NCBI GenBank assembly: GCA_029907705.1
Contig: JARYLJ010000020.1
Coordinates: 1-36,252 of the forward strand
Reading direction: 5' to 3'
Length of the DNA: 36,252 bases
Source of the DNA: Methanomicrobiales archaeon
GTDB lineage: Archaea > Halobacteriota > Methanomicrobia > Methanomicrobiales > JACTUA01
Positions 11,448 through 35,290 of this stretch are shown here, one piece after another. The position numbers and the translations under genes are program-made. A model generated the notes under the pieces. The model did not search any database and was not told the DNA's origin. It saw nothing but the letters and a program-made list of their open reading frames with translations. Position 1 is the stretch's first letter; each line of letters begins with the position of its first letter.

Positions 11448-12626
11448 TCATCCCTCTCTCTTCCGCTGTTCCGAGAGGAGTGAGAGGAGATTTTTGAGCC
11501 CGCGAAGTCCGACGGTCTTCTGGCTCCCGTGCATGATATCGATATGGGGAATCTTCAGCAAAGCGGCGAGAGGCTTCTCCAGCATGCCTCCGATGAGAAG
11601 ATCGATCTTCTCCTCTCCAAGGGCATCGACGATCTCCTGCTGCCCGGGCTCCAGCAGCACCTTCCCTGCGAGGGACCTCATCTCGTCCATCGCCTCTTCG
11701 GTGGGGGCGGAATCGAGCACGACGAGTACCGGCGAACCCCGCAGTTCCTTCAGAAAACGGCACATGGCGAGCGTTCTCGTCGGTCCACCCACGACGGCGA
11801 TGCGCGTGCCTGAAAGGTCGACATCCGCCTCCGGCTCCTCGTCAGGCAGGTCAGGGGCCTCGATCCCCAGCGTATCGGCGACACGACGCAGGAACTGCCG
11901 GGTCGCCCGGTAACCGATGGGGAACTCCATTGCGATGAAGGGGGTTCCGAACCTGCGCCGGAGCGTCTCTGCCGCTTCCCTGCCGGCGGTCTCGCAGACC
12001 ACGACATTCAGCGCCGCTTCACCGAGGCGCTCCATCTCCCCCCGTGTCGAGCCGGCTGTCAGGACCGCATTCACCCGCAGACCGAGGAGGGCCATGAGTT
12101 CCTTCAGCTCCCGCAGGTCTGGCCCTGCGCGGAGCAGCCCGAGCAGGTTCACCGCACGGGGATCGATCCTCTCTGGCTCCCTCGCGATCTCCTCCGCGAT
12201 CCTGGAGAGCACGGCACTGTAGCCGGTCCTGAAATCCCCCTCGAATCCGCCGGCCTCGAAGGAGATGACCCTGGCGGTGGTCCTCGCCTCTTTCGCCGCC
12301 TGCTCCACGTCCTCGCCGATGATGCTGGAGGCGCAGCAGGAGAGGACCGCGATCAGTTCCGGTTTTATCGTGCGGTCGATCTCCTCGATCGCGCGGACGA
12401 GCTCCCGCTCGGAGCCGAAGATCACGCCGCGCTCGTCGAGGGCGGTCGTGTAGATCGCGGAAGGACGGTCCCCCCGCATCCCCAGGATGTAGTTGATGTG
12501 ATAGACGCAGCCCCTGGGGCCATGGACGAGTATTGCGCATTTCCTCATGGTCCCCAGCGCCTTTACCACCCCGAAGAGACGGCAGGTCTTCCTGGGGATC
12601 TCGAACGCTCTCTGCTTCTCTGGCAT
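11448..12626 (-). CDS. cfbD: CfbD, NifD-like subunit of Ni-sirohydrochlorin a,c-diamide reductive cyclase
   Basis: The 392-residue protein is a NifD/NifE-type Oxidored_nitro member: C15 in KTCRLFG, C40 in HGPRGCVYHINYILG, and C97/C98 in LSCCASSIIGEDV are placed like cluster-binding cysteines of nitrogenase subunits. In methanogens the short NifD homologue CfbD works with the NifH-like CfbC to reduce and cyclise Ni-sirohydrochlorin a,c-diamide in coenzyme F430 synthesis, the cofactor of methyl-coenzyme M reductase. The length fits CfbD and not true nitrogenase NifD. No CfbC or other cfb gene is nearby. The start follows CAGGTGACCG. It is preceded at 67 bases by a protease gene and followed by the broken DUF72 gene on the same strand. 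Another NifD-like role cannot be fully excluded. Confidence 0.85.
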   Translation of the reverse strand: MPEKQRAFEIPRKTCRLFGVVKALGTMRKCAILVHGPRGCVYHINYILGMRGDRPSAIYTTALDERGVIFGSERELVRAIEEIDRTIKPELIAVLSCCASSIIGEDVEQAAKEARTTARVISFEAGGFEGDFRTGYSAVLSRIAEEIAREPERIDPRAVNLLGLLRAGPDLRELKELMALLGLRVNAVLTAGSTRGEMERLGEAALNVVVCETAGREAAETLRRRFGTPFIAMEFPIGYRATRQFLRRVADTLGIEAPDLPDEEPEADVDLSGTRIAVVGGPTRTLAMCRFLKELRGSPVLVVLDSAPTEEAMDEMRSLAGKVLLEPGQQEIVDALGEEKIDLLIGGMLEKPLAALLKIPHIDIMHGSQKTVGLRGLKNLLSLLSEQRKREG

Positions 12627-16234: not shown

Positions 16235-18250
16235 TCACGCTGCGTCCAGGAGGTGCTCCTCCAGTTCGGTCAGGGCGATCCCCTCGAGGGTCCCGGGGTC
16301 GAGGTCAGTAATCCTGTAATATGCACCGTTGCTCTCCTGCGCGATCTTACGGCAAAAACCGACGCCCAGAGAGAGGACATCACTGCGCGCCGCCTCCGTG
16401 TCGATCACCACCGTATGCACATCCCTGTCTGCCAGCAGCCGCGATAGTGCCAGGAGCTCCTCCCCGATCCGCCCGCCCATACCCACGTTCGCATGCCCGT
16501 CGGAGAGGAGGATCAGCAGGGGGATCAGGTGCGGGTGCTTCTCGCGCTCCCGCTCGAACCGCCTCAGCGCCAGATCGAGCCCCGACGAGAGAGGCGTCCT
16601 CCCGCCGGTGGGGACCTCTGCGAGCCGCTTCGCGGCCAGGTCTGTGCTCTGGGTGAAGGGGAGTATCTCGTCCGCCTGCTCCCCCCGGAACGCGATCAGG
16701 CCTATGCGGTCCCTGTGCCTGTATGCGTCCTCCAGCAGCGAGAGGACCGCTCCTTTCGCCGACTGCATCCTCCCCTCCGCACCCATGGAGCCGCTCGCGT
16801 CCACCAGGAAGAGGATGGCCGCGGAGGTTCTTCCGAAGCGTTCCCTGAACCTCAGGTCCTCGAGCCGTATCCTCACCCTCGGTATTCCGTCTCCCTGATC
16901 CTGATGGATCGCGGCGGCCCTGATACTCGCATCCAGTGCGAGCTCCCTGCGTTCCGATCTCTCCGTCGGCGACCTGTACCTCCCCCTCGCGAGGGGGGTC
17001 TCCACCTCCACCCTTCTCCCGCTGTCATAACGCTCCTTCCCCTTCGGAAGCATACGGGACCTCATCACCATGCCGGAGTCTATTCCCTTCCCGGGCCGTA
17101 TCACCTGCTCCTTCGCCTTTCCGCTCCGTGAACCCTTTCCGCCTCCCTTACCCGCATACTCATGGCGCCCCTCGTGCGGATGGCGCGGACCCCTGTCCTC
17201 CTCTCCGTCCCCTCCGCCCTCCAGGCGATCCATCAGATCGTCCAGCCGCCTCCTGTCGAGATCGGGGTCCTCGAAGGGGCGGCGGCGCAAACGATGCGGG
17301 AGCGCGAGATGCATCGCCTCGCGCACGTCTTCTCCGGTCACTGACGTCCTCCCATCCAGCGCCGCGATCGCCTTCGCCGCCCTCGCAACGGTGATCTCCG
17401 CCCGATGGGTCTTCACACCCAGCTCGTTGCAGGCACTGGCGATGTACCGGAGGAGACCATCGTCCATCGTTATGCCCTTCAGCCGGGCAATCGCACCCGC
17501 GATTTGCTCTTGCAGTTCGCGCTGCGCTCCCACGCAGGACGCCCTGAAACCGACAGGGTCCTGCTCGAAGCGCTCCACCACGCGGACGATCTCCATTCTC
17601 TGCTCCACACCGCTCAGGCCCGAAATGGTCACCTGGAGCCCGAAGCGGTCCAGGAGCTGCGGCCGCAGTTCCCCCTCCTCCGGGTTCATCGTACCGATGA
17701 GGATGAAGCGGGAGGGATGGGAGAAGGAGATCCCCTCCCTTTCCACCGTGTTCACACCCATGGCGGCGACGTCCAGGAGGACATCCACGATGTGATCGTC
17801 CAGCAGGTTCACCTCGTCGATGTAGAGTATGCCCCTGTGGCAGGCGGCGAGTATCCCCGGCTCGAAGGCCTTCACCCCCTTCTGGATCGCCCGTTCGATG
17901 TCGAGCGTGCCCAGCAGCCGGTCCTCGGTCACGCCCAGCGGCAGGGTGACCACCTGCACCTGGCGACGCTCCACCCCGGGGGCATTGCCCTTCCCGCCGC
18001 ATTCGCCGCAACGTATGCAGAACTCCCTGTCACGAACGGGATCCGCGTGGAACGGGCAGTTCTTCACCACCTCGATCTCCGGGAGCACCTCCGCGAGCGC
18101 CCTCACGGCGGTCGACTTTGCCGTGCCCTTCTCCCCTCTGATGAGCAATCCCCCGATCCTCGGATTGATCGCGTTCAGCAGCAGTGCCCTCTTCAGCTCC
18201 ATCTGTCCGACGATCGCTGAAAATGGAATGATCTCCGCTCCCTCCATCAT
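16235..18250 (-). CDS. Fused ChlI-ChlD-type metallochelatase AAA+/VWA subunit
   Basis: The 671-residue protein joins the two small subunits of an ATP-dependent chelatase. Residues 1 to about 330 are a ChlI/BchI AAA+ ATPase: Walker A GEKGTAKST (39-47), Walker B ILYIDEVN (141-148) and a sensor region GTMNPEEGELRPQLLDRFG. A Cys group C65, C78, C81, C84 lies between Walker A and B and could bind zinc. A Gly/Arg/Lys-rich linker (about 345-430) leads to a VWA domain with the MIDAS motif DASGSMG at D484. Such proteins power metal insertion by a large CobN/BchH-type subunit. The ATG overlaps the stop of the cobN-like gene by four bases, so both are made together. Metal and porphyrinoid are not shown by the sequence. 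Confidence 0.92.
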   Translation of the reverse strand: MMEGAEIIPFSAIVGQMELKRALLLNAINPRIGGLLIRGEKGTAKSTAVRALAEVLPEIEVVKNCPFHADPVRDREFCIRCGECGGKGNAPGVERRQVQVVTLPLGVTEDRLLGTLDIERAIQKGVKAFEPGILAACHRGILYIDEVNLLDDHIVDVLLDVAAMGVNTVEREGISFSHPSRFILIGTMNPEEGELRPQLLDRFGLQVTISGLSGVEQRMEIVRVVERFEQDPVGFRASCVGAQRELQEQIAGAIARLKGITMDDGLLRYIASACNELGVKTHRAEITVARAAKAIAALDGRTSVTGEDVREAMHLALPHRLRRRPFEDPDLDRRRLDDLMDRLEGGGDGEEDRGPRHPHEGRHEYAGKGGGKGSRSGKAKEQVIRPGKGIDSGMVMRSRMLPKGKERYDSGRRVEVETPLARGRYRSPTERSERRELALDASIRAAAIHQDQGDGIPRVRIRLEDLRFRERFGRTSAAILFLVDASGSMGAEGRMQSAKGAVLSLLEDAYRHRDRIGLIAFRGEQADEILPFTQSTDLAAKRLAEVPTGGRTPLSSGLDLALRRFEREREKHPHLIPLLILLSDGHANVGMGGRIGEELLALSRLLADRDVHTVVIDTEAARSDVLSLGVGFCRKIAQESNGAYYRITDLDPGTLEGIALTELEEHLLDAA

Positions 18251-21200
18251 CGCTCTCTCCTCCCCTCAGTCCCCGCCAGATCGTTCCGCTCGCTCCGGGT
18301 AATGATATCGATCGCACCGCCCTGCACCGGCGCATCGCCGGCACGCTCATCCTCCATCCATCCCTCGACCTCCAGATACGCCTCCTTCAGACCCTCGAGC
18401 ACCTCCTCACTCGCGTTCCAGAGCCCCCTCGCATGTGCCTCGAGCAGCCGCCTCCCTGCCTCCTCGAGCGCCCACGGGTTGTGCTCCCTGAAGAAGCGGC
18501 GCATCTCACCGTCGAGGAGGAATGTCCTCGCGATCTCGTCGAAGAGGTGGTCCCCCACCTCCTCCGTGGTCGCCTCCCAGCCGTAGACGCGCCCGATCCT
18601 CCTCGACAGTTCGGCCGCCCCCGTATAACCGTGCTCCTTCAGCGCATCGATATACCCGGGATGCAGGAGCTTCGCCCGCACCACCCGTGCGATCTCCTCG
18701 CCCAAGGTGCGGACCTCCACCCCGTCGCGCTCCCTCGTATCCCCGTAGTACGCCTCCACGTGCTCCCCCGAGAGCGACCTCGCGGCGGCGGTCATGCCGC
18801 CGTGGGAGCCGAAGTAGCAGCAGCACCCGAGCAGGTCATACTCGTCGGTCACCGTCTTGTTGAAGGTGAGGGAGACCGTCTTCAGCTGCGAACGGAACTC
18901 CTCCTTCGCGTCCGCCCCGTGCCTGTCTCTCCCGTAGGCGTATGCATTCCACTCCACGAATATATCGGCGAGATCCTTCGCATCCCTCCATGCGGATGCA
19001 TAGACCGCAAGGTTCACCCCCATCCCGTAGGTGCCGGGCCGGCTGGAGAAGATCCTCAGGAGTCTGCCGGACCCCTGCTCTCCTGCGTGTTTCCTCACAT
19101 AATTCATCTCCACCGGCTCCTCCCTGGCGGCGACGAGCTGGAGTGCATCGTCCAGGAGCTCGATGCATGCGGGGAAACAGTCCCTCAGAATCGCGCTCGT
19201 CCTGACCGTCAGATCGATCCGCGGGCGCTTCAGCACCGGGAGCGGTATCGCCTGCAGCGCACTCACCCTCCCGCCGCTCCAGACCGGTTCTATTCCGAGA
19301 AGCCAGAGCATCTGCGCCAGCTGCTCGCCGTCCGCCCACATGATGTCCGAGGCCATCCAGAGCATCCCGACGTTCTCCGGATACCGGCCCCCGTGCTCCT
19401 CACGGTACTTCTCCAGCAGCGCCTCCGCGAGCCGCCGACCGATCCGCCATGCCGCTTCCGTGGGGATCGAGGACGGGTCCATCGAGTAGAAGTTCCTGCC
19501 GGTGGGGAGGATCTCCTTCCTGCCCCTCGTGATCAGGCCCGAGGGCCCTGGCTCAACATGACCACCATGCAGCGCATGCACCAGGGATCCCGTCTCGTCC
19601 GTCGCATCCAGAAGCGCGGAGATCTCCCGCACCTCGTCCGCGACCGATGCGCACATGCCGCGGTCCACCTCGCCCAGGCGAATGCCTAGCAGACACTCCA
19701 TCGCCTCCGCAGGATCGCGGCCCTCGAGGAGCGCTCCTATCCACTCACACGACAGGGGATCCGGCTCCTGCGAGGTGATTGCCTCTCCCCTCCTCCTGTC
19801 TTTGTCCCCATCCGAAAGATGCGCGATCAGCCCCCTTACCTTTCCCTCGTACCGGAGCACCCCCTCAATGAAGCGGGCCCGACGCTCCCCGGCAGGTACC
19901 CTCCCGAAGATGTGCATGCCCATGGGGATCGAGGTGCCCTCCATGCGGGAGAGGACACGGTGCACCTGGTCGATAATGACCTGCATCGACTCCCCCCTCC
20001 CGAGGCGATCGTCGAGGCGGATCTCCTCCGCGATGCTGCACTCCCTGATCCGGTCCAGAATCAGGTGTTCCAGGGCATGGGCACGGGCATGCCTCTCGCC
20101 TGCCCTCCTGTACTCCGCGATCTGCTCCTCCAGCTCCTTCAGGGCGCCGTAGAGGCCCCCCGACGCCATCACCGTCTGCAGGTGGTCGACGAGCACCGCG
20201 TACGCCCTCCTCTTCGCGATCGTCCCTTCCGGCGGGTTGTCTGAGTTGTAGATGTAGAGCTGGGGCAGCGTGCCGAGCACGGCATCGGGGGCGCATGCGG
20301 CGGAAAGGGCGATTGCCTTTCCAGGGAGGAACTCCAGCGTGCCATGCGTGCCCACGTGCACGATCGCATCCGCACCGAAGACCTCCTGCAGGTAACGGTA
20401 GGTCGCCAGGTAATGGTGCGGGGGAGGCACCTCCGGATCATGGAGGATGCGGCAGACCATCCCGTCGCAGCGTGCACCCGCACAGCCCCGCTTCGGCTGG
20501 GTGCAGACGACCGCGTTCCCGAGGGAGATGCCCGTGATCACGATCCTGCCCTCGTACAGCATCGCCGCGGGTACGCCCTCCCTCGCCTCCCCCGGCGGGT
20601 CGCCCCATGTACCGATCACCCGCTCCCGGTATTCGGAAGGCAGGGCATCAAACCACCGCTGGTACTCCTCCAGCCCGACAAGTGCGAGGTACCCGTTGTT
20701 CCTGACGATATCCTCCACCGAGGTCCACCGGAACTCGCTGATCGCCCTCCTGGACATGATCTCCTGCACCAGCGCCTCCCCGCTTTCGGGCACTTCCACA
20801 TCGTAGCCCTCCTTTTTGAGTTTTTTCAGGATCTCGACCACGCTCTCCAGCGCATCCAGGTGCGCCGCGCTCCCGACGTTCGCCTCCACGGAGGCGCACG
20901 GGGCGTTGTTCAGGATGAACGCAATCCTCTTCTCGCCTGTGGGCTTCTGCCGCAGGCGCACCCATCGCAGCACCCGCTCCACCAGGTGCCCGATCCGCTC
21001 CTCCAGCGGGTCGTGCCAGTCGGGGGAGGCGCGACCCTGCTCCACCGATGCGGTGCCGCACGGTATGAACTCCACCATCCCCTGCAGCTCGGGCACGACG
21101 ACGGACCAGGCGATCTCCATGCTGCCCATGCCATCGCGGCGGGCCAGCCAGTCATCCCGTGTTCTATAGTAGAGCATGACGGGATGGAAGACCGGCACGT

Positions 21201-21957
21201 CCAGCTCCTTCAGGAGCTCCACCGAGGAGGCGGGATCGTCCCCTGCGAGCGAGGACTGGAGATCGATGAGCGCATCCACCTTACCGGTGAAGAAGTCCCT
21301 GACGGTACCGCCCCTCCCCTGCCTGCCCCCTTCCTTCTCGCCTGTACCGGTGGAGAAGACCGCGATGACATCCGCATGCCTCTCCACCTCCCTGATGAGG
21401 GCGTCCACCACCCTGAGATCCCTGTTCACCCAGTAGATCCGGTAGAAGAGGATCCCGATCGCTGCCCGGTGCCTCCTGGGCCTGAAGGCGAAGTACTCCT
21501 CAGGCGCAAGAAAGAGGCGATCCGCATCGGGATGGTAGATCCCCTCCCATGGCATGGCGAGCGGCTCCTGCGCCTCCCATGGCAGACCGAGCACCTCCCT
21601 GCCCAGGTAGCGGAGGAGAAGAAGCATGTTCTCCTTTCCGCCATAGGCGAAGTAGGCGTTCACCATCGCGCTCACGCCCGGCGGGACGTTCGAGAGCGCC
21701 CAGTGGGAGATGTCGAATCCGTAGGAGACGACCGGTTTTCCGCAGGGGAGCGCACGTACCATCTCGTCCCAGTAGGGCTCCTGCGTCGGGTGGAGCAGGA
21801 TCACGTCCGCTCCTCCCGCTCCCTCCAGGAACCGGTTCATCTCCTCCCGCCCGCTAAGCCTGGACGTGCTCGCTGCGTGGAGCTCCACCCCTGCCTCTGC
21901 CGCTGCTTCGACGAGCAGTGGAAGTTCGCTCGCCCATATCGCGGCGGCGACCCTCAT
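18247..21957 (-). CDS. CobN/BchH-like large chelatase subunit
   Basis: The protein of 1236 residues belongs to the CobN/magnesium-chelatase H superfamily that binds the tetrapyrrole and inserts the metal. Diagnostic stretches are HVGTHGTLEFLPGKAIALS with H534 and H538, then YIYNSDNPPEGTIAKRRAYA, and near the end EVLEGLKEAYLEVEGWMED. A four-Cys loop C485-x6-C492-x4-C497-x4-C502 precedes PPPHHYLATYRYL and could bind a metal or Fe-S cluster. The open frame runs to 22596, but that part is antisense-like shadow of the ATPase gene; ATG 21957 overlaps the ATPase stop by four bases and begins MRVAAAIWASEL like its homologues. Methanogens insert cobalt and nickel with small CbiX/CfbA chelatases, so the role of this large one is unclear. 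Confidence 0.92.
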   Translation of the reverse strand: MRVAAAIWASELPLLVEAAAEAGVELHAASTSRLSGREEMNRFLEGAGGADVILLHPTQEPYWDEMVRALPCGKPVVSYGFDISHWALSNVPPGVSAMVNAYFAYGGKENMLLLLRYLGREVLGLPWEAQEPLAMPWEGIYHPDADRLFLAPEEYFAFRPRRHRAAIGILFYRIYWVNRDLRVVDALIREVERHADVIAVFSTGTGEKEGGRQGRGGTVRDFFTGKVDALIDLQSSLAGDDPASSVELLKELDVPVFHPVMLYYRTRDDWLARRDGMGSMEIAWSVVVPELQGMVEFIPCGTASVEQGRASPDWHDPLEERIGHLVERVLRWVRLRQKPTGEKRIAFILNNAPCASVEANVGSAAHLDALESVVEILKKLKKEGYDVEVPESGEALVQEIMSRRAISEFRWTSVEDIVRNNGYLALVGLEEYQRWFDALPSEYRERVIGTWGDPPGEAREGVPAAMLYEGRIVITGISLGNAVVCTQPKRGCAGARCDGMVCRILHDPEVPPPHHYLATYRYLQEVFGADAIVHVGTHGTLEFLPGKAIALSAACAPDAVLGTLPQLYIYNSDNPPEGTIAKRRAYAVLVDHLQTVMASGGLYGALKELEEQIAEYRRAGERHARAHALEHLILDRIRECSIAEEIRLDDRLGRGESMQVIIDQVHRVLSRMEGTSIPMGMHIFGRVPAGERRARFIEGVLRYEGKVRGLIAHLSDGDKDRRRGEAITSQEPDPLSCEWIGALLEGRDPAEAMECLLGIRLGEVDRGMCASVADEVREISALLDATDETGSLVHALHGGHVEPGPSGLITRGRKEILPTGRNFYSMDPSSIPTEAAWRIGRRLAEALLEKYREEHGGRYPENVGMLWMASDIMWADGEQLAQMLWLLGIEPVWSGGRVSALQAIPLPVLKRPRIDLTVRTSAILRDCFPACIELLDDALQLVAAREEPVEMNYVRKHAGEQGSGRLLRIFSSRPGTYGMGVNLAVYASAWRDAKDLADIFVEWNAYAYGRDRHGADAKEEFRSQLKTVSLTFNKTVTDEYDLLGCCCYFGSHGGMTAAARSLSGEHVEAYYGDTRERDGVEVRTLGEEIARVVRAKLLHPGYIDALKEHGYTGAAELSRRIGRVYGWEATTEEVGDHLFDEIARTFLLDGEMRRFFREHNPWALEEAGRRLLEAHARGLWNASEEVLEGLKEAYLEVEGWMEDERAGDAPVQGGAIDIITRSERNDLAGTEGRRER

Positions 21958-22733
21958 GCTGCCGCCTCCCCGCTCGGCCTGATCGGGATGAGGTAGGGCA
22001 CACCATCGATCCGGTGAATCTCCACCTCGATCCCGTATACTGCACGGATCTTCTCGGGCAGGAAGAGCTCCGTTGGTCTGCCTGTGCCGGCGATCCTGCC
22101 CCCCTTCAGCATGACGATGCGATCGCAGTACCGTGCAGCGAGGTTCAGGTCGTGGAGCGCGACGATCACCCCGGTACCCTTCTCCTGCGCCTGCCTCTGC
22201 ACCAGCTCCATCACCTCCATCTGGTGCCTCAGGTCCAGGGAGGAGGTGGGCTCGTCGAGGAGGAGGATGGGGGTCTCCTGCGCGAGGGCGCGGGCGATCA
22301 TCACCTTCTGCCGCTCTCCGCCGCTGATCTGGGTCGTTCTGCGGAAGGCGAGCTCCTCGAGGCCGAGCAGACGGATCGCCTCCACCACCTTCTCCACATC
22401 GCGATCGCCCACGCTCCAGCCGATGTGCGGGCGCCGGCCCATCATCACGAAGTCGAAGACGTTCATCATCATGCCCACCGAGAGGGCCTGGGGCACGTAG
22501 GCGATGCACCGTGCGATCTCCCGCGTGGACATCCCCGTGATATCCCTGCCATCGAGCCGGATGCGCCCCTTCGGATGCAGCACCCGGTTCAGGCATTTGA
22601 TCAGCGTGCTCTTCCCCGAACCGTTCGGCCCCACCAGCCCCAGTATCTCCCCCTCCTCCAGCGCGAGATCGATCCCTTTCAGCACCTCCTCACTCCCGTA
22701 GGAGAAGGAGATCTCCTGCGCCTCCAGTCTCAC
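21954..22733 (-). CDS. ABC transporter ATPase, FecE/BtuD type
   Basis: The 259-residue ATPase has Walker A GPNGSGKST, Q-loop YVPQAL, signature ISGGERQ, Walker B PILLLDEPTSSLD and the H-loop ALHDLNLA, all intact. It belongs to the iron-siderophore/heme/cobalamin importer family (FecCDE, BtuCD). It starts with GTG 22733, whose bases overlap the TGA of the permease gene (GTGA). The frame remains open far upstream to 23573, but there it only shadows the permease. It is the energiser of the importer encoded by the two genes before it. Confidence 0.95.
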   Translation of the reverse strand: MRLEAQEISFSYGSEEVLKGIDLALEEGEILGLVGPNGSGKSTLIKCLNRVLHPKGRIRLDGRDITGMSTREIARCIAYVPQALSVGMMMNVFDFVMMGRRPHIGWSVGDRDVEKVVEAIRLLGLEELAFRRTTQISGGERQKVMIARALAQETPILLLDEPTSSLDLRHQMEVMELVQRQAQEKGTGVIVALHDLNLAARYCDRIVMLKGGRIAGTGRPTELFLPEKIRAVYGIEVEIHRIDGVPYLIPIRPSGEAAA

Positions 22734-23803
22734 CAGAACCCCTCCCTGCTTCTGACGAACAGGTACAGGAAGAACGGTATCCCGATGAAGGCGGTCATGA
22801 TGCCCACCGGCAGGATCACGGGGGCGAGGATCGTCCTCGCCAGACTGTCCGCTCCGAGAAGAAGCACCGACCCGACCATCCCGGCCCCCGGAAGAAGGAA
22901 CCGGTGGTCGCCCCCGATCGCGAGGCGCGTGATATGCGGCGCCACCAGGCCGATGAACCCGATCGTGCCGGTGAACGCGATGATGGAGGCGGTGATGAGG
23001 GAGGCGATGAACATCTGCTCGGTCCTCGTCCGCTCCACGCGGACGCCCAGACTGGCGGCCACCTGGTCGCCCTGGCTGATCGCGTTGAGATCCCAGGCGC
23101 GGTACACGAGATATGGCACGACGACAGCGAGTGCGAGCGCGAGAATGCCCGTCTTCAGCCAGGAGGTCCGCTGGAGGCTCCCGAACATCCAGAAGACCAC
23201 CTCCGCCAGCTGCTCCCTGGAGCCGATGTACTGGAGGAAGGAGGTGAGCGCGGAGAAGAGGTACATGAGCGCGATGCCGGCGAGCACCATGCTCTCGGCC
23301 GATATACCCCTGTAACGCGAGAGGCTGTAGATGCCCGCCGTGGCCAGGAGCGAGAAGACGAATGCATTCAGTATCACCAGGTATTCGCCCTGCGCCATAC
23401 CGAGGCCGAGCACCATGGCGAGCGCCGCACCGAAGGTCGCTGCCGAGGAGATGCCTAGCGTGAAGGGGCTCGCCAGCGGGTTCTTCAGCACCCCCTGCAT
23501 GACCGCACCCGCGATGCCCAGACCGAAACCGGCGAGCATGGAAAATATCACGCGGTGGAGGCGCAGCTCCCACACGACCGTGGTGGCGAGCGGGTCAGGT
23601 GCGGGGACGAAGTCCAGAAACCTGGAGGCGATCGCGATGTACACCTCTGCGATGGTGAGGCCGGCCGAACCCAGCGTGATCGCGAAACCGGCGAGGAGTA
23701 CGGTCAGGACCAACAGCGATGCGATGAATATGATCTTTCTTCCGACGGAGCGCCTGTACTCCCCCCTCAGCTCCGTCATCGCCTGACCACCGATACCCTT
23801 CAT
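22730..23803 (-). CDS. FecCD-family ABC transporter permease
   Basis: The 357-residue protein has about ten membrane spans. A first span lies at residues 27-47, and RLHRVIFSMLAGFGLGIAGAVMQG followed by NPLASPFTLGISSAATFGAAL is the hallmark of FecCD/BtuC permeases, as are GTIGFIGLVAPHITRL and the C-terminal GADSLARTILAP with the EAA-like coupling loop. It imports iron chelates, heme, cobalamin or related compounds through the membrane. It begins 13 bases after the binding-protein stop; ATG 23803 and an in-frame ATG at 23779 (after GGTGGT) are both possible. A homodimer is expected because only one permease is present. Confidence 0.94.
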   Translation of the reverse strand: MKGIGGQAMTELRGEYRRSVGRKIIFIASLLVLTVLLAGFAITLGSAGLTIAEVYIAIASRFLDFVPAPDPLATTVVWELRLHRVIFSMLAGFGLGIAGAVMQGVLKNPLASPFTLGISSAATFGAALAMVLGLGMAQGEYLVILNAFVFSLLATAGIYSLSRYRGISAESMVLAGIALMYLFSALTSFLQYIGSREQLAEVVFWMFGSLQRTSWLKTGILALALAVVVPYLVYRAWDLNAISQGDQVAASLGVRVERTRTEQMFIASLITASIIAFTGTIGFIGLVAPHITRLAIGGDHRFLLPGAGMVGSVLLLGADSLARTILAPVILPVGIMTAFIGIPFFLYLFVRSREGFW

Positions 23804-23816
23804 TCGCCGGTCCCCC

Positions 23817-25025
23817 TCATGGGTATACGAACACCCTGTCCTCGACCAGATCTTCGGGCATTCCCTGGAACTCGTGCACGTAGCGGAGGTGGATCTCCTC
23901 CGGCTCCAGGGAGGGGAAGTCCTCAGGATACAGCCACTTCGCCAGATACGCGGTACCGACGATGAACTGCGGCCCGCCCATGATGTCCGTGTGCATCAGA
24001 TGCACCCGCCCTTCCCTCACCGCCTCCAGCGTGCTCCATCCGGGCCTTTTCAGCAGCGCCTCGTAGGTCTGGGCGTAACGCGTGGTGTTCGCCTCCCGGT
24101 AGCCCCCGAACCTGTAGTCCCCGGTCCCCACGAGCTTCACGATCACCTGCGGGGTTCGCTTCAGGACCGCCTCGGGATCGATCGCCGGGTACTCGGTCGT
24201 CTCCTCCCCGAAGATGTTCGTGCCTCCCGCCATCTCGATCTTCTCGTGATAGCCGGAACCCTGACCGCCCGTCTTGAAGTCCGTCCAGGTCTCCAGATAG
24301 ACCCTCATCCTCGCGTCTTCGGGTATACCCGCCGTGTGTTTCGTTATTTCTCCGATTGTTTCGTCGTAGAAGGCGAGGTAGCGCACCCCCTTCTCGCGGG
24401 CACCGAAGATCTCCATGAGCGCCTCCACCTCGCGTCGGTAGGTCGCGGGCTTGTACCCGTCGAACCTGAATATCATCGCCGAGGGCATCGTGCTCCCCAG
24501 GGTCCTCACGATTGCATCCGTCGAATCGGGGCTGATCGTGGCATACAGGAAGACCGCATCGGGCTTCAGGGAGAGGATCTTCTCGTAGTCGGGCGCCCAG
24601 ATGGAGCCCACGTTCACGTGCCTCGTATATTCGGGGAAGAAGTCGGGCTTCTGGAGGGTGTACTTGTCCACCCCCACCACCACGCGGGAGTTCACGCCGA
24701 TGGAGCGCATCGTCTCCAGGGTCTCGCTGTTCATCACCACCACACGTCCGAGTGGCCGCTCGAGCATGTACGCATTGCCCGCGCTGTCCTTCACCTCCCG
24801 TTGCGTGCCGTTCCAGTACTTCACGACGAAGGCGGCGTCCTGCACCTCGCGCTGGAGAACGGGGTTCTCCTGCAGCCTGCCGTGCACCTGAAGCAGGTAG
24901 TCGAGTGCGATGGGATAGAGCTCATCCTCCGCGATCCTTCCGTCACCGTCGAGATCGAGGGGCAATGCCGCCGAGACCGCGCTGACGAGGAGCAGGAGGA
25001 GGCAGAGGAGCGCAGGCACCCTCAT
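23817..25025 (-). CDS. Periplasmic-type metal-chelate/cobalamin binding protein with EF-hand loop
   Basis: The 402-residue protein has a signal peptide (residues 1-19, ending VSAVSA). Directly after it is DLDGDGRIAEDE (24-35), a calcium-binding dockerin/EF-hand-like loop with ligands D24, D26, D28 and E35. From about residue 80 it is a Peripla_BP_2 (BtuF/FecB) fold: LGRVVVMNSETLETMRSIG, then PDYEKILSLKPDAVFLY and a C-terminal domain with GGTNIF and AIDPEAVLKRTPQVIV. There is no lipobox, so anchoring is by an unknown route, or by the neighbouring membrane protein. The ligand, heme, siderophore, corrinoid or another chelate, cannot be told. The start overlaps the previous stop (ATGA). Confidence 0.93.
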   Translation of the reverse strand: MRVPALLCLLLLLVSAVSAALPLDLDGDGRIAEDELYPIALDYLLQVHGRLQENPVLQREVQDAAFVVKYWNGTQREVKDSAGNAYMLERPLGRVVVMNSETLETMRSIGVNSRVVVGVDKYTLQKPDFFPEYTRHVNVGSIWAPDYEKILSLKPDAVFLYATISPDSTDAIVRTLGSTMPSAMIFRFDGYKPATYRREVEALMEIFGAREKGVRYLAFYDETIGEITKHTAGIPEDARMRVYLETWTDFKTGGQGSGYHEKIEMAGGTNIFGEETTEYPAIDPEAVLKRTPQVIVKLVGTGDYRFGGYREANTTRYAQTYEALLKRPGWSTLEAVREGRVHLMHTDIMGGPQFIVGTAYLAKWLYPEDFPSLEPEEIHLRYVHEFQGMPEDLVEDRVFVYP

Positions 25026-25525
25026 CTCCGCTCACCCCTTCTCCAGAAGACGATGCATAGACCCGCGATGATGGCGGATACCGGTAACAAGGCGGATACG
25101 CCCGCCCGCGTGACCGCCGGTGCCGCGGTCGTCCTCCATGGCGTGGGCCCCGCCTGCCTCTCCGTCACGTACCCCCTCTCCCCTGTGATCAGATCCTCCC
25201 ATACCCCATCCAGCACAGGCATACCGGCTTCGTCGCGGAGGGTGTACCTCACACGGCTCTCGTTCATCGTTGCCATCGCGAGGATACTCCCGTCAGCCCT
25301 CATTCGGGAAGGCGGAAGGCTGCACTCCAGCAGCGCCGCATCCTCCGGGAGCCTCTCGACGATGCCTGCCGCATCCAGATGCTCGATCCAGAGTGTCACC
25401 TCGTACAGCCCCCCGCCCTTCTCGGCGACCTCCCTCGTCACCATGCCGGCGAGCGCGGAGGCGGGTGCTGCACACATGAGCAGGATCAGGGCAACAAATA
25501 CGACGGTCGAGGGGAAGGTCTTCAT
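25022..25525 (-). CDS. Secreted protein with C-terminal membrane anchor, first gene of the operon
   Basis: The 167-residue protein begins with a signal peptide (residues 1-25, MKTFPSTVVFVALILLMC then APASALA), has an extracellular middle (EVAEKGGGLYEVTLWIEHL ... MRADGSILAMA) and ends with one transmembrane helix (about 143-161, ALLPVSAIIAGLCIVF) and a basic RRGERR tail. The family is not recognised. Being first in the operon and overlapping the binding-protein start by four bases, it may be a surface partner of the binding protein or transporter. The strand's TATA box at 25551-25560 is 30 nt upstream with no Shine-Dalgarno, so the message is probably leaderless. Confidence 0.8.
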   Translation of the reverse strand: MKTFPSTVVFVALILLMCAAPASALAGMVTREVAEKGGGLYEVTLWIEHLDAAGIVERLPEDAALLECSLPPSRMRADGSILAMATMNESRVRYTLRDEAGMPVLDGVWEDLITGERGYVTERQAGPTPWRTTAAPAVTRAGVSALLPVSAIIAGLCIVFWRRGERR

Positions 25526-25550
25526 GGTACAAGAGAAGTGGAGACTAATT

Positions 25551-25560
25551 TATTTTATAA
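25551..25560 (-). promoter_or_regulatory. TATA box of the transporter-chelatase operon
   Basis: The minus strand reads TTATAAAATA about 30 nt before ATG 25525, in a strongly AT-rich stretch. Transcription would start within a few bases of the ATG. No further promoter is seen within the six-gene operon. Confidence 0.6.
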
Positions 25561-25620
25561 TTTACTTACTTTTTTTTAATTTTATTAATATTCAACATAA
25601 TTTTTCTTAATAGGTATTGG

Positions 25621-25635
25621 AAATTAATAAAAATC
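25621..25635 (-). terminator. T5 terminator for the GATE-domain gene
   Basis: Minus-strand ATTTTTATTAATTT lies directly after the stop codon at 25639 and before the promoter of the operon below, so it probably separates the two transcripts. Confidence 0.45.
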
Positions 25636-25638
25636 GTA

Positions 25639-26613
25639 TCACAGGAGGAGTACGATCAGACATATGGTGACGAGCTTCGCACCCATGCTCGCCACATACG
25701 AGACGATCGTTATTCTCACCCCGAACCTCCCGAAGAGCGAGAGGTTCAGGGGCAGGGTGTACCTGATGTAGATCAGCGTGATCACCAGCATGCTCCCGAT
25801 GATCAGCGTGAGGAGCGCCTGTTTCAGCGTCAGCACTCCTGCCGCGATGAGCGAGGCGACGATCGCGTACCCCGCGTATGCGCGGAGGAACTGTGCCATG
25901 AGCGCGGTGGAGCTCTCGCCTGGAAGCCCCACGAACGAGAGCACTGGGTCGAAGAGGTAGCGGAGCAGCTCGAGCGCACCGGTGGCGGAGAGGATTGTGA
26001 AGACCAGGATCGCCACCACCGTCGTGGGGACGATCCTCTTCAGGTCGGGCAACGCCCTCTCCAGGCCATCCCTGATTACGTCCGCACCGAGCCTGAGGGG
26101 TTCCCTTTCCATCCCATCCTCCGCGCCTTCAGGGTCCACGCCGCGCCGCAGTACCAGGCGTGTGTAGAGCATCGCACCCACCATCTGGAGGAGGCTGGAG
26201 AAGAGGTTCAGCAGCGTGTGGATCCCCCCCACGACCGGGCCCATCAGGAGCACCGCCGTCGGCAACTGCACCCGGAACAGCAACTCGCCGAGCACGACAG
26301 GAAAGGTACTCATCACGATCAGGGGGATCACCTCCTCCCTCTCCACCTCCTCCTTCCGGTACATCTCGGAGACCATCGCCTTCCCCGCGGTCGGGTTGAC
26401 AAACATGCCCATCAGGCAGAGCATGCTGGAGTGAGACAGCCCCGAGAGCCGGCTCAGCGGCGCCATGAAGATGCCCAGCCTCTTCAGCACACCGGTCTCC
26501 ACCGCGATGCTCGCGATGATAATACCGGCGCTGACGAGCACCACCGCATCGAGAAGGAGGTCCAGGATGTATGCCGGCACCAGTTCCACAGGGATGCCCC
26601 TTACCGGAAGCAT
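25639..26613 (-). CDS. GATE-domain (nucleoside recognition) membrane protein
   Basis: The 324-residue product has about eight to nine membrane spans in two related halves. The first contains GLSHSSMLCLMGMFVNPTAGKAMVS (read in two parts: GLSHSSMLCLMG and MFVNPTAGKAMVS) and the second VGLPGESSTALMAQFLRAYA, both typical of the Gate/nucleoside-recognition family that includes SpmA/SpmB and the gate of FeoB-type proteins. Substrates in archaea are unknown; nucleosides or ions are possible. It lies upstream of the transporter-chelatase operon on the same strand, separated by a terminator-like T-run and a TATA box, so it is a separate unit that may still be functionally linked. Confidence 0.85.
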   Translation of the reverse strand: MLPVRGIPVELVPAYILDLLLDAVVLVSAGIIIASIAVETGVLKRLGIFMAPLSRLSGLSHSSMLCLMGMFVNPTAGKAMVSEMYRKEEVEREEVIPLIVMSTFPVVLGELLFRVQLPTAVLLMGPVVGGIHTLLNLFSSLLQMVGAMLYTRLVLRRGVDPEGAEDGMEREPLRLGADVIRDGLERALPDLKRIVPTTVVAILVFTILSATGALELLRYLFDPVLSFVGLPGESSTALMAQFLRAYAGYAIVASLIAAGVLTLKQALLTLIIGSMLVITLIYIRYTLPLNLSLFGRFGVRITIVSYVASMGAKLVTICLIVLLL

Positions 26614-27414: not shown

Positions 27415-27535
27415 GTTCAGGCAGCCCCTCCGATCCCTCCTCCGAACTGCAATCACCTCCTCTGGACAGTGGTTGTATCTTTTTCTGATGATCATCATAT
27501 ATAAATATTATTTTTTGTTACTATTTTTATATTAT

Positions 27536-28312: not shown

Positions 28313-30499
28313 ATGACGAATGCGTTGCACCACGCGCTCAAGGGCATACGGCGATATCTGAGACTGGAGGGAAGAGATGAGGCCCCTTTGGAGAGAGACG
28401 AACAGGGGGGCGGGGAAGCGGTGGGGGCCAGGAGGGAGGTGCAGGATGCATCCCCTTCCCTGCCCAGTACGGAGAGGAGGACAGGGTTCGATCTCGAAGG
28501 CAGTGAGCCGAACGGGGCCAGGCCCGTCTTAATGGGTGAGAATGAGGAGGCGGAGGCACGCGATATCATCATCAGGGGCCTGATCGCCAGAACCAGCCCG
28601 CTCGAAGGAATGGGCGTGAGGGAGGCGATCCTCGCACGGGAGAGGGATCGAAGGAAGGCACGAACGGGCTTCTTCAGGAAGAGCGACCCCGACCTCGAGA
28701 AGATACCCCGGCTGGTGATGCGGATCGGGCCCGAGGCGGAGCTGGATGCCGATGAACGGGAGCTCCAGGCACTCATCGGTGGGCTGGTGCCGACGGGATA
28801 TGCAACTCCGGACCACCATGAATCGCTCATCCGTGGTCTGATCGCGCGCACGAATCCCGTGGATGACCTGAAAGGGAAGGAGGCGCCGGTGGCAGAGGAA
28901 AGGGAGGCGAGAAAGGGCATATGGGGGTTCATCAGGAGGAGGGACCCCTCGCTCGAGAGGATCCCGACCCTGGTGGTGGGGAGAGGGGGACCTGCTTCTG
29001 CGACCAGTGCCACTGTCGAGGGCGGAAGCGCGGAGGTGATCGGGAGCTACTCGGTGAACCCCCCCTTCGCGAGGGTGAGGATCGTGAAGGACGCGGCCGG
29101 TGGGGTCCGCTACGAAGCGGTGGAACCCCTGCTCGAACCCAGGGAGATCGTGCTGCTGGAGGAGGTATTCAACTACTTCAGGGACACCATCCTCTTCGAG
29201 AGCCCGATGGCGGCAGAGAGGATGACGATCACCATGGAGGAATTGGGGGACGCGGTCCGGATGTTCGAACCTGCGATGAAGGACACCCGGCTGCCGGTAT
29301 TGTATTATTACCTGACCAGGAACTTCTATGGATACGGGCGGATCGACCTGCTCATGCGTGACCCGGCGCTCGAGGATATCAGCTGCAACGGACCGCAGAT
29401 ACCGGTCTTCGTCTTCCACCGAGAGTACGGGAGCATACCCACGAATATCGTCTTCGGGTCGGAGGAGATGAACAGGTTCGTCCTCCGGCTCGCCCAGAAG
29501 GCGGACAAGCAGATATCCCTCTCCACCCCGCTGGTCGATGCACACCTCCCGGACGGCTCGAGGATCCAGCTCACCTTCAGCGACGTCGTCTCGACGAGAG
29601 GGAGCTCGTTCACCATCCGGAGGTTCAAGAAGGACCCGATGACACCGCTCAACCTGGTGCAGTACGGGACATTCGACCCCCTGATGCTCGCCTTCATCTG
29701 GTACGCGCTGGAGCACCGTTCCAGTGCGATCATCGCGGGCGGCACAGCGAGCGGCAAGACCTCCACGATGAACGCGATCTCCTTCTTCATCCCGCCCAAC
29801 GCGAAGATCGTCTCGCTGGAGGATACGAGGGAGATCCAGCTCCCGCACCAGAACTGGCTCCCCGTGCAGACCAGGGAGCTCTCCCTGACGAGCGTGAAGG
29901 GGGAGATCGACCTCTTCATGCTCCTGAAGTCCTCGCTCCGACAGAGGCCCGAGTACATCATCGTCGGGGAGGTGCGCGGGAAGGAGGCGCAGACGCTCTT
30001 CCAGGCGATGAATACCGGCCACACCACCCTCTCCACCCTCCACGCGGGAGACATCGAGGAGGCGATCAACCGCCTGACAAACGAGCCCATCGCCGTCCCG
30101 CCCGTGATGTTCTCTGCACTGGACCTGATGATCATTCAGGGGATCCATCACCGGGAGGGCAGGATCATCCGTCGCTGCGACTCGATCCACGAGATCATGG
30201 TGGAGAGGGACGGCACCATACAGCATCAGCCCCTCTTCCTCTGGGATCCGAAGCTGGACGATTTCGAGCGGCTGAAGATTCACTCGCGCATCCTCTCGCG
30301 GATCGCGCACGACTACGGCACGAGCGAGGACGACACCCTCGTGGAGATCGGGAGGAGGGCGAGGTTCATACACGAGCTCCTCCAGAATCCGCCAGCCACC
30401 GCCGAGGGACTACTCCTTCGCCTCCATGACTTCCTCGCCGCAGGGGGCTGTGCCGCCACGGACACTTCCGTTCCTGACGCGGAGAAGGAAGAGGAATGA
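28313..30499 (+). CDS. Archaeal pilus assembly ATPase (GspE/TadA family) with duplicated N-terminus
   Basis: The 728-residue protein is a type II/IV secretion ATPase: Walker A GGTASGKTS (about 476-484), the Asp box EDTREIQL, Walker B-region YIIVGEVRG, and the His box NTGHTTLSTLHAGD. It drives assembly of a type IV pilus. Residues about 82-145 and 163-225 are two copies of one motif, RGLIARTSPLEG... and RGLIARTNPVDD..., each followed by a GF(F/I)R+(S/R)DP(D/S)LE+IP(R/T)LV segment; this duplication is not part of the ATPase fold. GGAGG at 28299-28303 is nine bases before the ATG and can pair with CTCC at 28290-28293. The gene heads a four-gene operon. Confidence 0.93.
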   Translation: MTNALHHALKGIRRYLRLEGRDEAPLERDEQGGGEAVGARREVQDASPSLPSTERRTGFDLEGSEPNGARPVLMGENEEAEARDIIIRGLIARTSPLEGMGVREAILARERDRRKARTGFFRKSDPDLEKIPRLVMRIGPEAELDADERELQALIGGLVPTGYATPDHHESLIRGLIARTNPVDDLKGKEAPVAEEREARKGIWGFIRRRDPSLERIPTLVVGRGGPASATSATVEGGSAEVIGSYSVNPPFARVRIVKDAAGGVRYEAVEPLLEPREIVLLEEVFNYFRDTILFESPMAAERMTITMEELGDAVRMFEPAMKDTRLPVLYYYLTRNFYGYGRIDLLMRDPALEDISCNGPQIPVFVFHREYGSIPTNIVFGSEEMNRFVLRLAQKADKQISLSTPLVDAHLPDGSRIQLTFSDVVSTRGSSFTIRRFKKDPMTPLNLVQYGTFDPLMLAFIWYALEHRSSAIIAGGTASGKTSTMNAISFFIPPNAKIVSLEDTREIQLPHQNWLPVQTRELSLTSVKGEIDLFMLLKSSLRQRPEYIIVGEVRGKEAQTLFQAMNTGHTTLSTLHAGDIEEAINRLTNEPIAVPPVMFSALDLMIIQGIHHREGRIIRRCDSIHEIMVERDGTIQHQPLFLWDPKLDDFERLKIHSRILSRIAHDYGTSEDDTLVEIGRRARFIHELLQNPPATAEGLLLRLHDFLAAGGCAATDTSVPDAEKEEE

Positions 30500-32352
30500 A
30501 CAGGCTACCAGAGAGGGAGAGGGAGGATTTCTACGGGCGGAGGATCCGGCCGATACTCGCGGAGACGGGCCTGCGGGAGGCGCTGCGGGGAGCACACATC
30601 CCGGAGATGGCCGAGCACTACGTACGGAAGGCGATCCTCGCCGGCGCACTCGGCGCTGCCGCCTTCGTTTCGATCTTCCTCGCGTTCCAGCACTTCGGAT
30701 ACGAGCTGGTGATCGGCGATCTCCCCGCCTGGGCGACCACGGCGACGGGGTTCCTGGTCCTCTGCCTCTTCCCCTTCCTCGGCATATACGCATACCCCTA
30801 CCTGGCCGCCATGGGAAGGCGGACCGAGATCGACCTTGATCTCCCCTACACGATCACCTATATGCAGGCGCTCTCCACGACGATGTCCCTCTACCATGTC
30901 ATCAGGAGGGTGCACGAGGAGTCGGACCTCTTCGGCGAGGTATCAAGGGAGTTCGGGGTGATCGTCCGGAACGTCGAGGTATTCGGGGACGACCTCTATA
31001 CGGCGATACGCGACCTGCAGCGGACCACGCCCTCGCAGAATCTCCGGGATTTCCTGAACGATCTCGTCGTGATGTCCACGAGCGGGGGCGATCTCACCAC
31101 CTTCCTCGCCGCCAGATCGGCGAACTTCCGCGAGATCGCGCGGAACGAGATGGAGATGATGCTCAAGACGCTGGAGGTGATGGCGGAGGTGTACGTCACC
31201 GCGTTCGTCGCCGGACCGATCGCGATCATCGTCATGGTCGTGGCGCAGAACCTCGCAGGACAGAGCACCCTCTCCGGCTGGCTGCCGCTCGTATATCTCG
31301 GCCTCTTCCTCGGGTCGATCGCGATGATCGTCATTCTGCACATCCTGCTGCCATCCGATCACCTGACCATCCGGCGGCGGGAGGTGCGGGAGAGCGAGTA
31401 CTGGAGCGGCTGCCATCGGGAGGAACTGCTGGGATCGCTGGACAGGAGGTTCCTCTCCCGGATCAATTCGATAAGGAGCAGGATCCGGCTGAAGACGGTA
31501 CTGAAGAATCCGGTCCGATACTACATCTCGGACTACATCTATGCCCAGCTCATCGGCACGATCGGCGTCGTCGTGATCTTCCTGCTCTACCTGACGGGGG
31601 CGCTCGCGTCGCTCTCCCCGCTCCACCAGATGGAGGTGCTCGTCGCGCTCCTCGTCATCGTGGCGCTCTTCCCTATTGCGGTCGCATACGAGGGGCGGCG
31701 GATGTACGTGAACAGCGTCGAGAAGCAGCTCCCCGATTTCCTCCGTGAGCTGGCAGAGATGAAGGACATCGGGCTCACCCTGCAGGGGGCGATCGACCGG
31801 ATCTCCCGGGCGAGGCTGGGGGTGCTCAGCTCGGAGCTGCAGGTCGTCTCGGCGGAGGTGAGGCAGGGATCGAGCATCGACATCGCGCTCTCCAGGATGG
31901 AGGAGCGGATCGGCCTGGTATCCGTGAAGAGGGCGATCTCGGTCGTGGTGAGGGCGAGCGAGATCACGGACTACCTCCGCGACATCCTGATGATCGCGAT
32001 CTCCGACTTCGAGCACTACCTGAAGATGAAGCGCGATCGTTTCAACGCCTGCTTCGTGTACGTGATGATCATCTATCTCTCCTTTGGGATCTTCCTCTAT
32101 ACGATCTATGCGCTGAACGTCTCCTTCATCGCCAGCTTTGCGAACCTGAACGTACCCCTGACGAACGCGGGCAACCTCACGGATATGTTCCGGATCGCGA
32201 TCCTGCTCGGCGGATTCTCGGGGATCATGGCAGGGCAGCTCAGCTCCAACAGCGTCCTCGCCGGCTTCAAGCATACGATCGCCTTCCTGATCGGGACGCT
32301 CCTCCTCTTTCTGGTGATCATACCGTATGCATCGGGGGGGATGTTCGCATGA
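30496..32352 (+). CDS. Pilus assembly membrane platform protein (TadC/ArlJ-like)
   Basis: The 618-residue protein has about nine membrane spans: two near 45-95, two near 235-290, two near 350-400, and three in the last 110 residues. The soluble segments between (for example EIDLDLPYTITYMQALSTTM and QLPDFLRELAEMKDIGLTL) are two T2SSF-type domains, the plan of archaeal FlaJ/TadC platform proteins that hold the ATPase at the membrane. Its ATG overlaps the ATPase stop by four bases (ATGA), giving coupled synthesis. It forms the inner-membrane core of the pilus machine with the ATPase and the two pilins that follow. Confidence 0.92.
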   Translation: MNRLPEREREDFYGRRIRPILAETGLREALRGAHIPEMAEHYVRKAILAGALGAAAFVSIFLAFQHFGYELVIGDLPAWATTATGFLVLCLFPFLGIYAYPYLAAMGRRTEIDLDLPYTITYMQALSTTMSLYHVIRRVHEESDLFGEVSREFGVIVRNVEVFGDDLYTAIRDLQRTTPSQNLRDFLNDLVVMSTSGGDLTTFLAARSANFREIARNEMEMMLKTLEVMAEVYVTAFVAGPIAIIVMVVAQNLAGQSTLSGWLPLVYLGLFLGSIAMIVILHILLPSDHLTIRRREVRESEYWSGCHREELLGSLDRRFLSRINSIRSRIRLKTVLKNPVRYYISDYIYAQLIGTIGVVVIFLLYLTGALASLSPLHQMEVLVALLVIVALFPIAVAYEGRRMYVNSVEKQLPDFLRELAEMKDIGLTLQGAIDRISRARLGVLSSELQVVSAEVRQGSSIDIALSRMEERIGLVSVKRAISVVVRASEITDYLRDILMIAISDFEHYLKMKRDRFNACFVYVMIIYLSFGIFLYTIYALNVSFIASFANLNVPLTNAGNLTDMFRIAILLGGFSGIMAGQLSSNSVLAGFKHTIAFLIGTLLLFLVIIPYASGGMFA

Positions 32353-32765
32353 AGCGCGCTGGCGGAGCGGAGGACGCGGTCTCCGAGGTGGTGGGAGAGA
32401 TGATCCTCATCGCGATCGTCCTCATCCTCGTATCCCTCGTCGGGATCTCGATCTACGGCCTCGTTCCCGGCGAACGGGAACCCTCGGTGGACGTGCTCTT
32501 CGAGAACACCGGCGGGAGTGTCGCCCTCCACCACAAGGGCGGGGACGCGATACCGAAGGGGGACCTTCTCCTCTTCATAGAGGGCGACCGCTTCACCCAC
32601 GCGGAGTTCGCCATGTACGACCAGAACGACAACGAACTTTCGGACCCCGATGCGCTCTTCGATCTGGGATGCCGCATCGAGATGAGTGGTCTCGATCTAA
32701 CAGGCGGCGAGCGGGTACAGCTCGCCACGCCGCGTGCGGTGATCTTCAGCGGGGTGACGAAATGA
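32349..32765 (+). CDS. Archaeal type IV pilin-like protein (DUF1628 type)
   Basis: The 138-residue protein has an archaeal class III signal region, AEDAVSEVVGEM, before a hydrophobic core (about 18-42) that would form the pilus-assembling helix after cleavage by an EppA/PibD-type peptidase. The mature part contains LHHKGGDAIPKGDL, the motif characteristic of DUF1628/archaeal pilins. The ATG overlaps the TadC-like stop (ATGA). It is a major or minor pilin of the operon. The frame of the next gene also overlaps its end by four bases. Confidence 0.88.
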   Translation: MKRAGGAEDAVSEVVGEMILIAIVLILVSLVGISIYGLVPGEREPSVDVLFENTGGSVALHHKGGDAIPKGDLLLFIEGDRFTHAEFAMYDQNDNELSDPDALFDLGCRIEMSGLDLTGGERVQLATPRAVIFSGVTK

Positions 32766-35260: not shown

Positions 35261-35290
35261 CATTCGGTAGTATAGAGAATGCTGGTACCC

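Follow-up and report, generated by a model that had tools for sequence, protein, structure and literature searches.

Here we report that a six-gene cassette of a Methanomicrobiales archaeon, which encodes a FecBCD-type chelate importer together with a large ATP-driven chelatase, belongs to a family of loci in which the linkage of importer and chelatase is old and conserved. The gene content of the cassette, this linkage, a cysteine signature in the CobN-family subunit, and NikR-type operators and nikR genes at the cassettes of relatives were all observed directly. We propose, tentatively and with a probability of about 0.42, that these cassettes may acquire metal-tetrapyrroles from which CobN/ChlID would remove or transfer the metal, and that across the family this metal is most likely nickel, with expression derepressed through NikR.

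Organisation of the cassette

The cassette occupies positions 16235-25525 of the window (the whole 36,252-nt stretch of DNA that was analysed) and consists of six minus-strand genes, all found where an earlier interpretation of the DNA letters (the sequence-only reading) had placed them.

25639..26613, minus strand: Gate-domain (nucleoside-recognition) permease-like protein, a recurrent CobN partner in relatives (neighbourhood comparison)
25526..25638, minus strand: AT-rich 113-bp intergenic region, probable promoter, without a canonical NikR site (operator scan)
25022..25525, minus strand: small exported or surface protein, 167 aa, first cassette gene; many relatives have a homologue at this position
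23817..25025, minus strand: substrate-binding protein (SBP), 402 aa, with an EF-hand-like N-terminus and a Peripla_BP_2 fold (Peripla_BP_2, 83 bits)
22730..23803, minus strand: FecCD-family permease, 357 aa (FecCD, 284 bits)
21954..22733, minus strand: FecE/BtuD-type ABC ATPase, 259 aa, GTG start (ABC_tran match)
18247..21957, minus strand: CobN-family class I chelatase catalytic subunit, 1236 aa, cysteine-motif clade (CobN-Mg_chel, 1187 bits)
20452..20484, minus strand: C492-x4-C497-x4-C502 motif in the CobN lid loop (loop I; motif and alignment comparison)
18817..18825, minus strand: C1045-C1046-C1047 motif in CobN domain V, where HmuS has its catalytic His and CobN has acidic residues (alignment)
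16235..18250, minus strand: fused ChlI-ChlD AAA+/VWA motor subunit, 671 aa (TIGR02442, 728 bits against a cut-off of 779)

Four junctions (surface/SBP, FecCD/FecE, FecE/CobN and CobN/ChlID) are 4-nt overlaps, and the 13-nt gap between SBP and FecCD is the sole non-overlapping junction; coordinates and profile matches thus confirm both the layout and the family assignments of the sequence-only reading. FecE starts at GTG 22733 and CobN at ATG 21957, longer ORF calls being mechanical extensions. Because an AT-rich gap of 113 bp precedes the surface gene, it is plausible that the six genes form one transcript. The surface protein had no Pfam or NCBIfam match in the profile search, the EF-hand-like loop of the SBP reads DLDGDGRIAEDEL, and the ChlID protein joins a ChlI AAA+ module to a VWA domain with a DASGSM MIDAS motif. 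In the host genome (1.79 Mb, 98.85% complete) the cassette CobN is the only CobN homologue.

The three importer components, SBP, FecCD permease and ABC ATPase, are encoded in one operon and constitute a FecBCD/BtuFCD-type ABC importer. The AF2 model of the SBP (pLDDT 94) has YiuA and FepB-like proteins as its nearest folds and also matches CeuE/Ni-His, BtuF and BhuT, a comparison that does not separate siderophore, nickel-histidine, B12 and heme binders; the ABC sequences likewise do not discriminate between ligands. All importer genes fell below the cut-off of every specific importer model in the profile search, including those for BtuC (223 bits against 461) and a corrinoid ATPase (254 against 537).

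A cysteine signature in the CobN subunit

The window CobN has the characters of the class I chelatase superfamily (CobN/ChlH/HmuS), namely a full-length CobN-Mg_chel domain (PF02514 covered at positions 2-1089 of 1090) and a six-domain fold. Its AF2 model (pLDDT 88, with the lid loop at low confidence) gave Foldseek TM-scores of 0.78-0.83 against CobN, ChlH and HmuS, with CobN 7c6o at 0.82 and HmuS 9d26 at 0.83. The GTHG active-site His and the Glu that follows it are present, and both (H538 and E542) are invariant in alignment A1.

The clade is marked by C-x4-C-x4-C in the active-site lid loop and by CCC in domain V. The lid loop of the window protein, QPKRGCAGARCDGMVCRILHDP, carries a five-residue insertion relative to CobN, and in CobN and HmuS this loop gates the active site; domain V reads DEYDLLGCCCYFGSHGG, in which C1047 falls on the catalytic His of HmuS and on an acidic residue of CobN. 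Both patterns are common to nearly all clade members, archaeal and bacterial, with few deviations that are mostly single substitutions. Neither was found in the other archaeal CobN-like groups compared, and alignments show that the lid-loop cysteines are missing in M. tuberculosis CobN, Synechocystis ChlH and HmuS. On a tree of 115 sequences the cysteine-clade label needs two changes, one of which is a single degenerate sequence. We infer from these patterns that the active site may hold a cysteine-rich metal or Fe-S site.

Distribution and conserved linkage

The neighbourhoods of 119 CobN loci were compared, with 100 non-redundant loci in the cysteine clade, 47 of which have at least 4.5 kb on both sides and form the well-flanked set. 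Of these 47 loci, 40 carry importer genes no more than 10 kb from CobN, and in 32 the distance is at most 2 kb, which agrees with the view of the sequence-only reading that chelate import is coupled to a large ATP-driven chelatase; ChlID is near CobN in 34, an ABC-2 exporter gene in 20, and 14 loci have a Gate-domain gene at no more than 10 kb. At least 17 further genomes of Methanomicrobiales show the order surface-SBP-FecCD-FecE-CobN(-ChlID). The gene-neighbourhood check that the sequence-only reading had called for thus found ChlID-CobN-FecBCD linkage conserved across archaea, and in bacteria as well: it spans Methanomicrobiales, Methanosarcinales, ANME and some bacteria, in several gene orders. 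Hosts include the methanogens Methanoculleus, Methanolinea, Methanospirillum, Methanocalculus, Methanothrix, Methanolobus and Methanomethylovorans, as well as ANME-1/2/3, Alkanophaga, and bacteria such as Desulforudis and the isolate Desulfovirgula thermocuniculi.

Within Methanomicrobiales the closest relatives of the window CobN are found in Methanolinea and Methanoregulaceae. The distribution is patchy, since a CobN homologue is present in 63 of 150 genomes of the order and in none of the 10 other genomes of the window organism's family. Several genomes of the genus that contains Methanoculleus (g9) keep just a 73-residue C-terminal stretch of CobN; such short remnants (L070:9665-9877 in G095 and L071:9849-10175 in G016, with similar ones in G052, G071, G083, G115 and G131) adjoin a TolB-like gene that is also found after the intact CobN of relatives, and are likely deletion scars of the cassette.

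Two bacterial contigs bear on the source of the ligand. A Syntrophaceae contig (L163) reads TonB receptor-SBP-FecCD-FecE-Gate-CobN-ChlID-TonB-like gene, and one of Omnitrophota (L157) reads FecE-Gate-CobN-ChlID-ExbB-(ExbD-like)-TonB; the TonB receptor and the ExbB-TonB genes in these diderm sets fit uptake of the ligand from outside. Elsewhere, tandem arrays of SBP genes surround CobN (L162:9190-16832, L136 and L059:15496-19800), some with dockerin-like repeats, which suggests several related ligands.

NikR operators at the cassettes of relatives

Many cassette loci of relatives carry paired GTRTTAC/GTAAYAC half-sites at a spacing of 13-14 bp, the same motif as the published delta-proteobacterial NikR signal (GTGTTAC-N13/14-GTAACAC and its reversed form; PMC545781). 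Counting pairs with at most one mismatch and taking the expectation from other spacings, we found 31 N13/N14 pairs against 4.7 expected, distributed over 27 of the 100 cysteine-clade loci, which are mutually related, so that a Poisson p for this enrichment is indicative only. The cassette upstream regions alone hold 18 pairs at spacing 13-14 against about 1.3 per other spacing. At a spacing of 24, too, the cysteine-clade loci show an enrichment of half-site pairs (14 cases).

As a positive control, the operator was found just upstream of nikM in 13 of 20 NikM-type loci of the order, at a spacing of exactly 14, and in five of seven loci from the window's own family; as negative controls, 30 cobalt CbiM loci and 30 iron FeoB loci from this order were scanned, and none had it. 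Genes for nikR flank the cassettes in L055, L060 and L102, and lie ~3 kb from CobN in G124 and ~8 kb in G084. NikR is near universal in the Methanomicrobiales genomes examined, and the host genome has a nikR gene (G000:C14:9248, E 4.1e-31). No NikR-type site was found upstream of the window's own cassette, and the nikM of the host genome is likewise without one, unlike the nikM genes of relatives; the operator scan of the window returned just weak sites at 27515 and 28206, neither of which precedes the cassette. The operators and nikR genes of relatives support a role under metal shortage, as the sequence-only reading had suggested. In independent published work on Methanothermobacter marburgensis, a CobN homologue (CobN1) and a NikR homologue (NikR1) reached high levels only when nickel was limiting (PMC12350162). 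One NikR paralogue has been suggested to act in zinc (PMC3087415), and paralogues may sense other metals.

Two further features of these neighbourhoods were recorded. Archaeal pilus genes (T2SSE, T2SSF, pilin-like) occupy 28313-33607 and 35279-35785 of the window, and similar pilin and assembly genes recur near the cassettes of other genomes, where several pilin genes are preceded by NikR-type sites. A conserved ORF of 126 aa lies near the cassette in L032 (4379-4759) and at six other loci, with a NikR-type site just upstream in L032.

Proposed mechanism and alternatives

Judged from their families, the surface and binding proteins would capture a metallated tetrapyrrole that FecCD/FecE would import. 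In the cytoplasm the cysteine-clade CobN, powered by the fused ChlI-ChlD motor, would then remove or transfer the metal. Across the family as a whole, nickel is the most likely metal, and F430 or one of its derivatives is perhaps the ligand; F430 is plausible as the abundant nickel tetrapyrrole where such organisms live. NikR would derepress the cassette genes when nickel is short, and in many relatives the adjoining ABC-2 exporter and Gate permease may dispose of the emptied ring or transport the metal. The ligand, the metal and the direction of the reaction we infer, as we do that the window's copy works in the same way. A more specific form of the idea, possible but doubtful, is nickel piracy, in which F430 or another nickel tetrapyrrole would be imported by methanogens, ANME archaea and some bacteria, its nickel stripped by a thiolate-rich ATP-driven class I de-chelatase and the ring exported by ABC-2; the exported empty ring may even be a secreted, recycled tetrapyrrole nickelophore. 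The bacterial members of the family argue against a role limited to F430 synthesis.

A solitary nitrogenase-component-1-like protein (window 11448-12626, 392 aa) was considered as CfbD, which would have placed an F430 gene beside the cassette, and was rejected: it scored 75 bits against a cut-off of 268 for TIGR03282, and lies below the cut-off of all nitrogenase models as well.

The sequence-only reading had looked to corrinoid or heme as substrate, and both now appear less likely targets than nickel, given the NikR operators and nikR genes of relatives, the absence of the HmuS motif, and the operator-free CbiM and FeoB loci. It was right that ordinary B12 synthesis does not depend on the chelatase, as CbiC is encoded in the same genome and in most of the order; for the co-occurrence check, CbiC is near universal in the order and so does not separate salvage from synthesis. 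That a BtuFCD-like importer takes up corrinoids for a CobN-ChlID which inserts cobalt into, or exchanges it in, corrins that are incomplete or mismetallated is unlikely: the host makes its own corrin ring (CbiC), CbiM loci are without the NikR motif, and an Rfam scan found no cobalamin riboswitch in eight bacterial cassette loci. One genus (L043-L045 and L047) does show a genomic link to corrins, and a corrin substrate may apply to it. There, CobN orthologues with 52-54% identity sit inside a cobalamin cluster with CbiC, CbiL, CbiF, CbiD and CbiA, yet CobN has its own N13 NikR-type site. Corrinoid salvage would also accord with an extra CbiC copy near CobN in G142, and with FecE having a corrinoid ATPase model as its best match and FecCD lying near BtuC, both far below the cut-offs. 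The operators would suit, too, an ATP-driven nickel chelatase of high affinity that supplements CfbA in F430 synthesis when nickel is scarce, with the importer bringing nickel chelates; a 2011 paper had proposed nickel chelatases of the CobN type in methanogens (PMC3087415), and a CobN homologue is induced under nickel limitation in M. marburgensis (PMC12350162). We consider this quite unlikely, since most relatives in the order are without the cassette yet need F430. Desulfovirgula and Desulforudis moreover carry the same gene set, although F430 synthesis is not known from bacteria.

Scavenging of heme iron, in which a cytoplasmic HmuS analogue would strip iron from imported heme, appears improbable because the HmuS motif is replaced in the window CobN, FeoB loci are without the NikR operator, and in relatives HmuS-like proteins are encoded separately, either beside hmuTUV-like partners or with the DHxxE motif; in its favour are the shared superfamily and fold, the linkage to an importer, and the change of BtuS-like proteins with iron source in M. 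barkeri (PMC10846266). As a marker of heme synthesis, AhbD (TIGR04545) matched just other radical-SAM proteins, below cut-off. It is highly improbable that a siderophore-type importer and a chelatase pair share a transcript while acting on unrelated substrates, for although the SBP most resembles siderophore-type proteins such as YiuA in its fold, importer-chelatase linkage is kept across families, orders, two domains and several gene orders.

Comparison with known systems

To call the system undescribed, as the sequence-only reading did, was too strong, since HmuS has been characterised as a heme de-chelatase whose reaction is tied to membranes and NADH (PMC12583661) and, as far as the cited account goes, BtuS was proposed earlier as a "CobN-like chelatase for metalloporphyrin salvage" (Rodionov 2003, as cited in PMC6460266). 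HmuS, from the hmuYRSTUV operon of Bacteroidota, likewise belongs to the CobN superfamily, is encoded beside uptake genes, is expressed when metal is short and takes metal from an imported tetrapyrrole, much as we propose for the cassette. However, it is membrane-anchored, has DHxxE and head/neck heme ligands (Met-79 and His-254), is without lid cysteines, and works with TonB-type proteins, whereas the partners of the window CobN are FecBCD and ChlI-D. The window protein departs from HmuS in its catalytic motif, its N-terminal anchor and its HmuTUV partners: LLGCCCYFGSHGG stands in place of LSLDHxxEFMGG (His-1209, Glu-1212), and its start, MRVAAAIWASELP, has by eye no long hydrophobic leader. 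BtuS offers a prior proposal of importer-linked CobN-like proteins that salvage metallotetrapyrroles; the papers examined describe no nickel link, cysteine clade or archaeal FecBCD-ChlID cassette.

With CobNST and ChlHID the cassette shares the fold of the catalytic subunit and an AAA+/VWA motor, ChlI and ChlD being fused in the window. Those enzymes are tied to biosynthesis (hydrogenobyrinate a,c-diamide is the substrate of CobNST) and the window chelatase to import; the acidic domain V motif of CobNST (DxDD type) is replaced by GCCC, the lid loop has extra cysteines, and in place of CobS and CobT the adjacent partner is the ChlI-ChlD fusion. BtuFCD, FecBCD and CeuE-FecDE belong to the same three-part importer family, and H. 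pylori CeuE with Ni-His is among the SBP fold matches. The NikR-regulated NikMNQO system has the same operator motif at nikM as the cassettes of relatives, but is an ECF transporter for Ni2+, in contrast to a chelate importer with a tetrapyrrole chelatase. On this comparison of sequences the cassette is best called a variant of importer-linked class I chelatases, distinct from HmuS and CobNST.

Two other groups of CobN-like loci were noted. Membrane-type homologues of 1490-1635 aa (L066:7703-14386, L067:5126-11685 and L069:5134-10942) adjoin DUF2162, MotA/ExbB and mostly DUF2149 genes, and that of L066 has HmuS as its best PDB match; these sets form an hmuSTUV-like core in methanogens, with the same arrangement as that described for hmuSTUV (PMC10434189), whereas the HmuS study holds that archaea lack complete hmu operons (PMC12583661). 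A separate FecBCD- or SBP-linked CobN group (L068:9978-17600, L160:7739-12750 and L161:17362-22421) keeps DHxxE (DLDHYYEFFGG) and is perhaps the iron counterpart of the cassette.

According to recent work, it is unknown what archaeal CobN/ChlH/HmuS homologues do (PMC12583661); the importer linkage, the cysteine signature of the clade and the NikR operators reported above make this question directly testable. If our proposal is true, tetrapyrrole de-chelation would extend from iron to nickel as a new kind of metal scavenging, and methane-cycling communities, in which nickel is often limiting, would share nickel locked in tetrapyrroles as a resource.
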